From NCBI RefSeq assembly GCF_020991365.1, contig NZ_JAJLRA010000004.1, forward strand, positions 1 through 64,000: DNA of 64,000 nucleotides. Direction: 5' to 3'. The position numbers were made by a program, and so were the translations under genes. This DNA is from Streptacidiphilus sp. ASG 303. Its GTDB lineage: Bacteria > Actinomycetota > Actinomycetes > Streptomycetales > Streptomycetaceae. The first letter of the stretch is position 1; each line of letters starts with the position of its first letter. This document shows positions 5,969 through 54,081 of the stretch, piece after piece. The notes beneath the pieces are model-generated. The model had not been told where the DNA came from. It saw only the letters and a list, made by a program, of their open reading frames with translations, and made no database searches.

Positions 5969-5982
5969 GTTTCACGTGGAAC
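5969..5982. other. parS (ParB-binding) site
   Basis: GTTTCACGTGGAAC differs by one base from the perfect palindromic parS consensus GTTTCACGTGAAAC. ParB binds such sites, which cluster around oriC in Streptomyces, to build the segregation complex. A second site with the identical variant, in the opposite orientation, lies at 53423-53436. Confidence 0.85.
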
Positions 5983-33914: not shown

Positions 33915-35810
33915 TCAGTTGGGGACGCTGCCGCCGCCGGTGACGCCGCTCAGGGTGTTGCCGCCCTGGGAGGGCGGCGGGTTCTGCGTGCCGCCGCCCG
34001 CGCCGCCGCCCGCGCTGCCGTCGGTCCCGCCCGCGGCGCCGCCGCCCGCGCTCGTGCTCGGCTGCGGGACGCTCGCGGAGGGCGGCGCGGAGGTCGGCGG
34101 AGCCGAGGTGGGCGGCGCGGAGGTCGGCGCGGCCGAGGTGGGCGCCGCGGAGGTCGGCGCGGCCGAGGTGGGCGGGTTCGTGGTGGGGACCCGGGTGGTG
34201 GAGGATCCTCCCGTGGTCCCGTTGTACGTCTGCCCGCCCCCGGTCGGGGTGTTCGCGGTCGGCGCGGGCGCCGGCGCGTTCCTCGTCCCCTGGCTGGAGG
34301 TGGCGGTGGGCGACGGCGAGCCGGAGGGGGTGTCGGTGCCACCCCCCTGGGTGCCGCCCCCGGAGGTGATGATCGCCGCGACCACGGCCACGGCGGCGGC
34401 CGCCGCCAGGGCCAGCCACAGCAGGGGGCCGCGGCGGTGCGGCTCGTCGTCGTCGGGACCGGCCGGCCCCGCACCGCCCGGGCCGTACCCGCCCGACGTC
34501 TCGTAGGGCCGGTAGCCGGGGCCCACCGCGGTCGGGGCGGAGGCCATCGGGGCCCCCATCGGCGGGGTGGCGCTGCCGAACCGCCCGGTCGTGCCGAACT
34601 GCTCGGTGGGGGCGTACGAGCCGGCCGGCGGTGTGGCGCCCGACGCCGTGCCGGAGCCGGCCGCCGCCAGCCCCGCGGCGGCGGCCGCGGCGGCCGCGGC
34701 GCCGGCCGCGTAGCCGGAGCCGCCCCCGCCGTGCATCTCCCGCAGCGCCTGCTGCGCGTGCGCCCGGAACTCGTCGGCGGACTGGAAGCGGTCGTCGGGG
34801 TCCTTGGCGAGCGAGCGCAGCACCAGGGCGTCCAGCTGCGGCGGCACCCGGTGGTTGGCCTGCGACGGCGGCCGGGGGGTGTCCTGCACGTGCTGGTAGA
34901 CCACCGAGAGCGGGGTGTCGCCGGTGAACGGCGGCCGCAGCGTCAGCAGCTCGTAGAGCATGCAGCCGGTGGCGTAGAGGTCGGAGCGGTGGTCCACGGC
35001 CTTGCCGAGCGCCTGCTCCGGGGAGAGGTACTGCGGGGTGCCCATCACCATGCCGGTCTGCGTCATGGTGCTGGCGGCGCCGGTGAGGGCGCGGGCGATG
35101 CCGAAGTCCATCACCTTGACCGCGCCGGTGGTGGTGATGATGACGTTGGCGGGCTTGATGTCGCGGTGCACGATGCCGTGCCGGTGGCTGTAGGCCAGGG
35201 CCTCCAGCACGCCCGCGATGATGATCAGCGCCTGGTCGACCGGCGGCGCCTCCTCGTCCACGAGCAGCTCGCGGACGGTGCGGCCCTCGACCAGCTCCAT
35301 GACGATGTACGGCATGGACTCGCCGCCGGGCAGCTCCTCCTCGCCGGTGTCGTACACCGCCACCACCGCGTGGTGGTTGAGCGCGGCGACGGAGTGGGCC
35401 TCGCGCGTGAAGCGGAGCCGGGCCACGTCGTCCTGGGCCAGCTCGGGGCGGAGCAGCTTGACGGCGACCGTGCGGCCGAGCCGCAGGTCCTCGGCGGCGA
35501 AGACCTCCGCCATGCCGCCGCGGCCGAGCCGGCGGGTGAGCCGGTAGCGGCCCTCGCCGACCGTGCCGAAGTCGCCCTCGGTGCCCTGCCCGGGGGTGCC
35601 GGGGGCGCCGAAGGCGGTGCGGCCGAAGCCTCCGGAGGAGTGCGCGGCGGCAGGGGTGGCGGGGGTCTCCGACACGCCGCCCGCGGTGCGGCCGCCGTGG
35701 GACGCGGGGGCCTGGTGCGCCGGGGCCGCTTCCGGGGACTGCTCACGGACGGGATCGCCGGTACGGCCGCGGGGGCCGTCTCCGCCTGCCGTGTGCGGGG
35801 TCTCTGCCAT
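33915..35810 (-). CDS. Transmembrane Ser/Thr protein kinase (PknB-like)
   Basis: The 631-residue kinase has a disordered Ala/Pro/Gly-rich N-terminus (1-85) and a kinase domain (about 89-350; LGRGGMAEVF glycine loop, VAVKLL, IVHRDIKPANV catalytic loop, MDFGIA, GTPQYLSPEQALG activation segment). A long linker and one transmembrane helix follow (LLWLALAAAAAVAVVAAIIT), then a Thr/Pro/Ser-rich extracytoplasmic tail. The tail has five or more copies of APTSA/PPTSA pentapeptides and no PASTA domain. The role is phosphorylation-based signalling from the envelope; ligand and targets are unknown. ATG 35810 follows GAGGAG closely. A second kinase gene lies directly upstream on the same strand. Confidence 0.92.
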   Translation of the reverse strand: MAETPHTAGGDGPRGRTGDPVREQSPEAAPAHQAPASHGGRTAGGVSETPATPAAAHSSGGFGRTAFGAPGTPGQGTEGDFGTVGEGRYRLTRRLGRGGMAEVFAAEDLRLGRTVAVKLLRPELAQDDVARLRFTREAHSVAALNHHAVVAVYDTGEEELPGGESMPYIVMELVEGRTVRELLVDEEAPPVDQALIIIAGVLEALAYSHRHGIVHRDIKPANVIITTTGAVKVMDFGIARALTGAASTMTQTGMVMGTPQYLSPEQALGKAVDHRSDLYATGCMLYELLTLRPPFTGDTPLSVVYQHVQDTPRPPSQANHRVPPQLDALVLRSLAKDPDDRFQSADEFRAHAQQALREMHGGGGSGYAAGAAAAAAAAAGLAAAGSGTASGATPPAGSYAPTEQFGTTGRFGSATPPMGAPMASAPTAVGPGYRPYETSGGYGPGGAGPAGPDDDEPHRRGPLLWLALAAAAAVAVVAAIITSGGGTQGGGTDTPSGSPSPTATSSQGTRNAPAPAPTANTPTGGGQTYNGTTGGSSTTRVPTTNPPTSAAPTSAAPTSAAPTSAPPTSAPPTSAPPSASVPQPSTSAGGGAAGGTDGSAGGGAGGGTQNPPPSQGGNTLSGVTGGGSVPN

Positions 35811-51867: not shown

Positions 51868-51905
51868 CCGAGGGCCGGGACTCCGTGCGGAGTCCCGGCC
51901 CTCGG
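51868..51905. terminator. Terminator of the rpsF-ssb-rpsR-rplI operon
   Basis: A stem of about 17 bp (51868-51885 with 51889-51905) with a 3-nt loop lies 48 bp past the rplI stop on the leftward strand. It can also stop the rightward MATE transcript. Confidence 0.85.
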
Positions 51906-51952: not shown

Positions 51953-52399
51953 TCAGGCGGAGACGACCGCCACGTCGAGCTTGGCCTCGACGTCGGTGTG
52001 CAGCTTGACGCTGACGCGGTGCGAGCCCACGGTCTTGATCGGCGAGGCGATCGTGACGGTGCGCTTGTCGACGGCCGGGCCGCCGGCGGCCTTGACGGCC
52101 TCCACGACGTCGGCCTGGGTCACCGAGCCGAACAGGCGGCCGGAGTCGCCCGAACGGACGGCCAGCTTGACCTGCAGGCCCTCGAGCTGGCCCTTGATCT
52201 CGTTGGCGTGCTCCAGCGACTGGATGGCGCGGACCTTGCGGGCGCGACGGATGGCGTCGACGTCCTTCTGGCCGCCCTTGGTCCAGCGCAGGGCGAAGCC
52301 GCGCGGGACCAGGTAGTTGCGGGCGTAGCCGTCCTTGACCTCAACGATGTCGCCGGCGACACCGAGGCCGGGAACCTCGTTGGTGAGGATGATCTTCAT
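51953..52399 (-). CDS. rplI: 50S ribosomal protein L9
   Basis: The 148-residue protein has the N-terminal rRNA-binding domain ([36 protein letters not shown]), the long connecting helix ([25 protein letters not shown]) and the C-terminal domain. It is full length and the last gene of the rpsF-ssb-rpsR-rplI operon, 17 bp after rpsR. Confidence 0.98.
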
Positions 52400-52416: not shown

Positions 52417-52653
52417 TCAGCGAGCAGTCGAGGTGTAGGGCAGCAGCGCCATCTCACGGCTGTTCTTGACAGCGGTGGCGACGTCGCGCTGGTGCTGGGT
52501 GCAGTTGCCGGTGACGCGGCGGGCACGGATCTTGCCGCGGTCGGAGATGAACTTCCGCAGCAGGTTCGTGTCCTTGTAGTCCACGTAGTTGATCTTGTCC
52601 TTGCAGAACACGCAAACCTTCTTCTTGGGCTTGCGCGCAGGCGGCTTCGCCAT
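52417..52653 (-). CDS. rpsR: 30S ribosomal protein S18, zinc-binding type
   Basis: The 78-residue protein has C14-x-x-C17 (VCVFCKDK) and C51-x-x-H54 (NCTQHQ), the zinc-ribbon residues of the C+ form of S18. Streptomyces often keeps a zinc-free paralogue elsewhere under Zur control, so this is presumably the zinc-replete version. ATG 52653 gives the family start MAKPP and has GGAG at the right distance; two more ATGs lie upstream at 52656 and 52665. Confidence 0.97.
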
Positions 52654-52750
52654 CATGTACTCCATCGGTGTTCACGATCCGGGCGGCCGCAGCCGCCCGG
52701 GTCGCACGAAATCTCGTCCGCTTGGCGCAGGATCTCCGAAGGGGAGCTCC

Positions 52751-53326
52751 TCAGAACGGGGGCTCTTCCGAGTAGCCGCCGCCACCGGCCGGGGCACCCC
52801 AGCCGCCACCGCCGCCCTGGCCGCCGGCCGCCGGGGCGCTGGACGCCCAGGGGTCGTCGGACGGGCCGCCGGAGGCCTGGCCGCCGCCGGAGCTGCCGCC
52901 CCAGCCGCCGCCCTGCTGGCCGCCACCGCCGCCGAAGCCGCCGCCCTGGCCGCCGCCGGACCGGTTGGCCCGGGTGACCTTGGCGGTGGCCGAGCGCAGG
53001 CTCGGGCCGACCTCGTCGACCTCGACCTCGAAGACGGTCCGCTTCTCGCCCTCGCGGGTCTCGTACGACCGCTGCCGCAGACGGCCCTGCACGATCACGC
53101 GCATGCCGCGCTGCAGCGACTCGGCCACGTTCTCCGCCGGCTGACGCCAGACGTTGCACGTGAGGAAGAGGCTCTCGCCGTCCTTCCACTCGTTGGTCTG
53201 GCGGTCGAAGGTGCGGGGGGTGGACGCGATGCGGAACTTCGCGACCGCCGCACCCGACGGGGTGAAGCGCAGCTCGGGGTCGTCGACGAGGTTGCCGACG
53301 AGGGTGATGACGGTCTCGCCTGCCAT
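52751..53326 (-). CDS. ssb: Single-stranded DNA-binding protein
   Basis: The 191-residue protein has an OB fold (1-110; [52 protein letters not shown]-like [13 protein letters not shown]), a Gly/Gln-rich flexible linker (about 122-178) and the conserved acidic C-terminal tip ending EEPPF, which recruits replication and repair proteins. It is encoded within the ribosomal operon between rpsF and rpsR. GGAG-type signal and ATG 53326. Confidence 0.97.
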
Positions 53327-53416
53327 GGTGGTGGTTGACCTCTCGGGAGGAGACGTTCCGTTCCAAGCACTCCCCCGGCCGCCGGCGTGCCGACGGTGGG
53401 GAGTCCTGCGTTCTCG

Positions 53417-53442
53417 TCGCGTGTTCCACGTGAAACACGCGA
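53417..53442. other. parS (ParB-binding) site within a 26-bp palindrome
   Basis: GTTCCACGTGAAAC (53423-53436) is the reverse complement of the parS variant seen at 5969-5982. Flanking bases extend the symmetry to 26 bp (53417-53442) with a single mismatch. It sits in the 154-bp spacer between rpsF and ssb, inside the operon, so bound ParB could affect read-through. The same hairpin could form in the RNA. Confidence 0.88.
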
Positions 53443-53480
53443 CGCGGGCTACCCGGCGCCCCGGAGGGCGGTCGGGAGGC

Positions 53481-53771
53481 TCAGTGGGTGTCCGGGCGCA
53501 GGACCTTGGTCCGGAGAACCTGCTCGCTCAGGTTGAGCTGCCGGTCGAGCTCCTTGACGACCGCAGGCTCAGCCTTGAGGTCGATGACCGAGTAGATGCC
53601 CTCGGACTGCTTGTTGATCTCGTACGACAGGCGACGACGGCCCCAGGTGTCGACCTTCTCCACGTTGCCGCCGCCGGTGCGGACGACGTTGAGGAAGTTC
53701 TCGATCAGGGGGGAGACAGCACGCTCCTCGACCGAGGGGTCGAGGATGAGCATGAGCTCGTAGTGACGCAT
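53481..53771 (-). CDS. rpsF: 30S ribosomal protein S6
   Basis: The 96-residue protein [30 protein letters not shown]... has the [24 protein letters not shown] core of S6. It is the first gene of the operon rpsF-ssb-rpsR-rplI. AAAGGAGGTG, nearly the full anti-16S sequence, lies 9 bp before the ATG, which is among the strongest ribosome binding sites in the window. Confidence 0.98.
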
Positions 53772-54081
53772 GTGGAACCCACCTCCTTTGGACTCAGCGG
53801 CCACGGTCTCTCCGTGGCAGGAGGGTTGTAGCGTCGGCGCCGGTGGCAAGGACGGATTCACCGTAGCGGTGACCACTGACAGTGGGGGTCCACTGCGTGC
53901 GGGCCGCTCGCGTCTCCGCCCGGGTGCACCGGTGCAGAAGTAACAGACTACCCGCACCCGAACGGGTACTTGTCATCCGTGCCGGGATCGCCGCACCCTG
54001 TTTCCATCGGATGCGTGGCGCACCCCGGTGTGCGACGCTGCCCGCACAGCGCTTTCGATCCTCATCGAGGAGGCAGAGCCC
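53772..54081. other. Divergent promoter region rpsF / membrane protein
   Basis: This is 310 bp between divergent genes. An inverted repeat TACCCG-N8-CGGGTA at 53949-53968 is the only operator-like element seen. The rpsF promoter must lie near 53815-53870, but no standard pair is clear. Confidence 0.35.

Follow-up and report, generated by a model that had tools for sequence, protein, structure and literature searches.

We analysed a window of DNA 64,000 nucleotides long, in which Pfam places rpsF, a spacer, ssb, rpsR and rplI, in that order, on the minus strand. The genes of this operon and the elements around them are as follows.

53481..53771, minus strand: rpsF, ribosomal protein S6 (PF01250)
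53445..53483, minus strand: hairpin 1, immediately 3′ of rpsF, with compensatory changes of its own among relatives
53415..53444, minus strand: 30-bp inverted repeat, equivalent to hairpin 2 of the rpsF-ssb spacer, with parS at its tip
53423..53436: parS core, GTTCCACGTGAAAC on the plus strand and GTTTCACGTGGAAC on the operon strand, with 13 of 14 consensus bases; predicted ParB site
53367..53407, minus strand: hairpin 3, located between hairpin 2 and the start of ssb, found by folding
52751..53326, minus strand: ssb, single-strand binding protein (PF00436)
52417..52665, minus strand: rpsR, ribosomal protein S18 (PF01084; start codon approximate)
51953..52399, minus strand: rplI, ribosomal protein L9 (PF01281 and PF03948)
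51872..51901, minus strand: 30-bp inverted repeat 3′ of rplI, found by inverted-repeat search; from its position, the probable end of the operon transcript

A preliminary description of this DNA had placed a parS site in the transcribed rpsF-ssb spacer, within a palindrome of 26 bp that extends beyond the 14-bp core. Positions 53417-53442 read TCGCGTGTTCCACGTGAAACACGCGA as described, the core differs from the parS consensus GTTTCACGTGAAAC by a single mismatch, and the operon assignment is upheld by the Pfam matches. The symmetry proved longer than claimed, spanning 30 bp (53415-53444) with Watson-Crick pairing at 14 of 15 positions; the lone DNA mismatch is a T.G on the operon strand, which becomes a U.G wobble in RNA. 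Beside the 13 matching core bases the site also has the flanking T/A pair, the consensus being a 14-16 bp palindrome near TGTTTCACGTGAAACA. At up to 2 mismatches, parS-like sites are far more frequent in the 64 kb than expected (2 observed against 0.03), and the other one, at 5969-5982 (GTTTCACGTGGAAC), has no flank symmetry. Across the whole genome we counted 14 such sites, 9 of them with no more than 1 mismatch; all 9 share one contig, the same that holds the window and parB, and parB lies ~27 kb from the rpsF-ssb site. This setting resembles the streptomycete origin island, which according to an excerpt of PMC8743542 holds parS sites, ssbA, parAB and dnaA, and in S. venezuelae 16-17 parS sites are bound (PMC12511625, in part). 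A run of 8 flank pairs has a chance probability of ~1e-4 at the local base composition. Loop-free inverted repeats with 14 of 15 pairs number only 4 in the 64 kb, including one just 3′ of rplI; long symmetry is thus not unique within the window, yet parS sites seldom have it.

RNA transcribed from the palindrome on the operon strand folds at −22.9 kcal/mol (z −4.4), in agreement with the earlier proposal that the transcript can form the same hairpin, and the four central bases make up the loop of folded hairpin 2. The whole rpsF-ssb spacer forms three main hairpins (z −3.5), of which hairpin 3 was found in the window's genus and its stretch is absent from the aligned Kitasatospora spacers. When 25 spacers were folded together with RNAalifold, two tandem hairpins were obtained, and the consensus structure scored −19.65 on the operon strand versus −10.81 on the antisense strand. 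When hairpin 2 alone was folded sequence by sequence, the operon strand had no advantage (the sense strand was lower in 5/25), and G.U exceeded A.C at fixed positions by just 5 to 1; the evidence for a role of the RNA strand is moderate. Individual spacers mostly form one long stem, frequently with a small bulge, and three segments (L044, L102 and L116) have weaker folds of −12.5 to −13.5 kcal/mol. All 11 spacers tested from the hairpin-bearing groups gave z values of about −2.7 to −6, as against about 0 to +1 in the 5 of 5 tested from Streptomyces, which are shorter and unstructured; folding was not unusual in two Streptacidiphilus spacers of another subgroup (L029, L031). A search of the operon strand at the hairpin found no U-tract or terminator-like site, and with no stem followed by a U-run, an intrinsic terminator of the U-tract type is ruled out here. 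A known RNA family is likewise rejected: no Rfam 15 covariance model matched the window at the gathering threshold, and none matched positions 53200-53900 up to an E-value of 1.

The core lies within the rpsF-ssb spacer in 3/3 genomes of the window's genus. The window's genome falls outside Streptomyces in the narrow sense: the rpsF-ssb flanks of one genome of its genus are identical to those of Peterkaempfera griseoplana, and the genus is therefore probably Peterkaempfera. A search of 200 genomes sampled from the family, for cores with 26-56 bases between them and ssb, returned 61 matches, all in genus g14, whose loci correspond to Kitasatospora; the site is present in 61 of the 64 genomes of g14, a total counted from the genome list. 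The spacer contains the core in 33 of 80 named loci, which belong to Peterkaempfera, Kitasatospora, some entries labelled Streptomyces and one labelled Saccharothrix; those core-bearing loci with the latter two labels that were included in the tree group among Kitasatospora. The site did not prove to be a Streptomyces feature: spacers of the Streptomyces loci that were read are without the core, whereas Kitasatospora and the window's genus have it. In a set of 38 loci, no spacer outside the Kitasatospora-like, Peterkaempfera and Streptacidiphilus rows has the core, and none of 296 genomes sampled from the class matched at gaps of 26-56 and 57-87 to ssb, a sample in which the family is represented by the window's genome together with 30 others from genus g10; a Streptomyces-wide site is accordingly rejected. 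The start and stop patterns used to delimit spacers gave none in 10 of 134 loci (L061, L062, L064, L070, L071, L073, L077, L084, L143 and L144).

The arms outside parS vary between species and their pairing is retained through compensatory changes. Among 39 distinct core-bearing spacers, counting standard pairs, 37 retain the second flanking pair, against 17.5 in shuffles; this pair occurs as A-T, G-C, C-G and G.U, with at least 10 changes on the tree. The third and fourth pairs (kept in 36/39 and 34/39) also exceed shuffles; pairs 5 to 9 do no better than shuffles, which we attribute to register shifts at bulges. Counted over related sequences, covariation reached 0.287 in 22 distinct 26-mers versus 0.110 when shuffled (0/500 as high) and at most 0.093 with slid partners, and 0.345 in 25 whole spacers versus 0.214 (0/500). 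In the RNAalifold structure of the 25 spacers, 95.1% of cells pair and both sides have changed in 10 of 23 pairs, figures that are biased upward since the structure was derived from the same alignment. Alignment and trees were made on subsets, each tree without 1 locus that was too short, and the subsets for one alignment and for the tree that places Streptacidiphilus were chosen for diversity. Because compensatory changes keep the arms paired, the hairpin itself is, as far as these sequences tell, preserved, which goes beyond what the preliminary description claimed; changes of this kind are what is looked for in a conserved structured mRNA element.

We compared the flanks of other parS sites in 10 genomes, restricted to sites that begin and end in G or C, of which 75 of 78 places were listed. 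Flank pairing was absent in 31 sites; the run was 1 pair long in 26, 2 in 4, 3 in 5, 4 in 2 and at least 7 in the remaining 7, so that 68 of the 75 listed sites have no more than 4 pairs. Other species contribute two rpsF-ssb sites to the 75, whose runs stop at 3 and 4 because their arms are bulged; the site in the window has an unbroken run of 8. Of the 14 sites in the window's genome only two are conspicuous, the rpsF-ssb site with its run of 8 and another with a run of at least 20. Flank symmetry is not a general property of parS, and a general flank preference of ParB is disfavoured by the short runs at most of the 75 listed sites.

An insert of roughly 30 bases interrupts parS in 3 of the 64 g14 genomes (L024 and L145, from the same genome, L146 and L147). 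The arms GATGTTTCACG / CGTGAAACATC are retained and the insert has diverged; the stem is predicted to be longer, with the ends of the insert extending the hairpin. These loci amount to a natural test of ParB loss at the rpsF-ssb site. One Streptacidiphilus group (L015, L018, L128, L130, L132 and L133) has a hairpin at the same place with a quite different tip and a similar 3′ arm (GCGGTGAGCAC). Because the tree joins Peterkaempfera to Streptacidiphilus (88/75), with Kitasatospora as their sister, the branching suggests that parS was lost in Streptacidiphilus while the hairpin stayed. A tree that holds the parS-bearing rows together was not rejected (p-AU 0.243), and Streptacidiphilus may have lost parS or may never have had one. 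By sequence comparison, these relatives show that the hairpin sometimes outlives the ParB site.

The long-armed sites among the 75 occur mostly at one other place, between pyrE and a convergent DedA-type gene. By tblastn, pyrE was found in L148, L149, L150 and L154 and was not found in L151-L153 or L155. Among 31 distinct pyrE loci, which comprise the best 30 matches and L149 and are biased to relatives, a parS core lies at most 300 bases 3′ of pyrE in 26; the scan behind these counts also took in L150, a duplicate of L167. The best palindrome takes in the core in 16 of the 31, and in 11 a loop-free palindrome scoring at least 13 is centred exactly on it; in others a distinct hairpin lies next to parS. 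The pyrE palindromes centred exactly on parS are 34-68 bp long with arms that differ between species, and face the convergent DedA-type gene where this was checked (L010 1474-1541 / L159, which is contig C118 of the window's genome at about 35475-35542, L158, L162, L167, L183, L186 and L149). Overlapping double parS-like sites (GTTTCACGTGAAACAACGTGAAACAC and variants) were seen 3′ of pyrE in L160, L182 and L185. Elsewhere, a parS-centred palindrome of 38 bp lies directly 3′ of parB in one Kitasatospora genome (L152 1501-1542), and a perfect one of 42 bp lies between convergent non-pyrE genes in a Streptomyces-group genome (G145, genus g10; L151 1501-1542). With the pyrE and parB 3′-end palindromes set beside the rpsF-ssb site, parS cores seem to have merged with transcript-end hairpins on more than one occasion.

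The site, its place, its conservation and its compensatory pairing can be read from the sequences; from these we infer ParB binding, an RNA role and a mechanism. On balance we favour a single palindrome with two uses, as a predicted working parS and, in the mRNA, as the tip of an intercistronic hairpin under selection. ParB very probably binds the rpsF-ssb site, and selection on the hairpin is itself quite probable. At the DNA level ParB would load here as at other origin-proximal parS sites. At the RNA level two or three hairpins would stand in tandem between the cistrons, with the palindrome supplying the upper part of the second; the covarying hairpins would mark the rpsF-ssb junction and protect the rpsF 3′ end, as a barrier to 3′-5′ decay or as a processing site, and may give partial termination ahead of ssb. 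Since there is no U-tract and essential ribosomal genes lie downstream, 3′-end protection or processing is favoured, with termination no more than partial, and we tentatively assign the hairpin to decay or processing in preference to strong termination.

The hairpin could instead be a partial terminator of the U-poor kind known from GC-rich genomes, which lowers ssb-rpsR-rplI relative to rpsF. An excerpt of PMC8269248 counts 353 of 535 highly structured transcript ends of S. clavuligerus as free of a U-tract, and the parS-centred palindromes at pyrE sit where a terminator is expected. The missing U-tract at the hairpin itself speaks against this reading, and strong termination would be hard to reconcile with the ribosomal-level expression that rpsR and rplI need; overall we regard it as unlikely. 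It is also improbable that the site is an ordinary parS with ParB as its sole user and flank symmetry due to chance or to ParB preference. Streptomycete origin islands hold many parS sites (PMC8743542, in part), every parS is palindromic, and a 16-bp definition of parS given in the accessible part of PMC12207404 takes in the ±1 T-A pair; however, covariation in the arms reaches past that pair, the arms survive where parS is split, and most other sites have little flank symmetry, with none at a GCATGGGG-flanked parS that is conserved in 6/6 Kitasatospora genomes examined. ParB-gated read-through, in which clamped ParB blocks RNA polymerase or changes termination at the hairpin, would have a parallel at intergenic parS3/parS4, where ParB lowers nearby transcription in P. 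aeruginosa (PMC5521831, in part), but B. subtilis genes beside parS are unchanged on loss of Spo0J, according to an extract of PMC7022226, and parS-less hairpins occur at the same place, leaving it very little probability. Least probable is a DNA cruciform, which the near-perfect 30-bp symmetry would allow: the bulged and interrupted arms of relatives fit RNA better than cruciform extrusion, and the operon strand is preferred in the consensus fold.

The dual-use palindrome has partial counterparts in known systems. With the origin-proximal parS clusters of Streptomyces (ParABS; PMC8743542, in part) it shares the core, the neighbourhood and the intergenic location, but it lies inside a ribosomal operon and has a covarying hairpin, and it was not found there in Streptomyces proper. 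U-poor (I-shaped) terminators and structured 3′ ends of GC-rich actinobacteria, as sampled from PMC8269248, have the same long GC-rich stem, short loop and lack of a U-tract; in contrast, the window's hairpin stands between co-directional essential genes and carries a candidate ParB site. Pseudomonas parS3/parS4, in what PMC5521831 offers in excerpt, are likewise intergenic with a possible effect on transcription, but they lie at promoters and the window's parS lies within a transcript. A search of the open-licence literature by titles, abstract starts and term counts found no paper on parS in a conserved transcript hairpin or terminator.

The locus would represent a natural case in which centromere recognition and RNA folding both constrain one short sequence of an essential operon. 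The two are separated in relatives that have the hairpin without parS and in pyrE loci where parS and hairpin lie apart, so that the possible interference between ParB loading and transcription becomes testable. A much broader proposal, to which we give only slight credence, is that Streptomycetaceae have repeatedly recruited parS as a hairpin core, at rpsF-ssb and at the 3′ ends of pyrE and parB, and that ParB loading alters read-through or processing there. If true, ParB loading at hairpins would physically couple segrosome assembly to the expression of origin-proximal ribosomal and replication genes.
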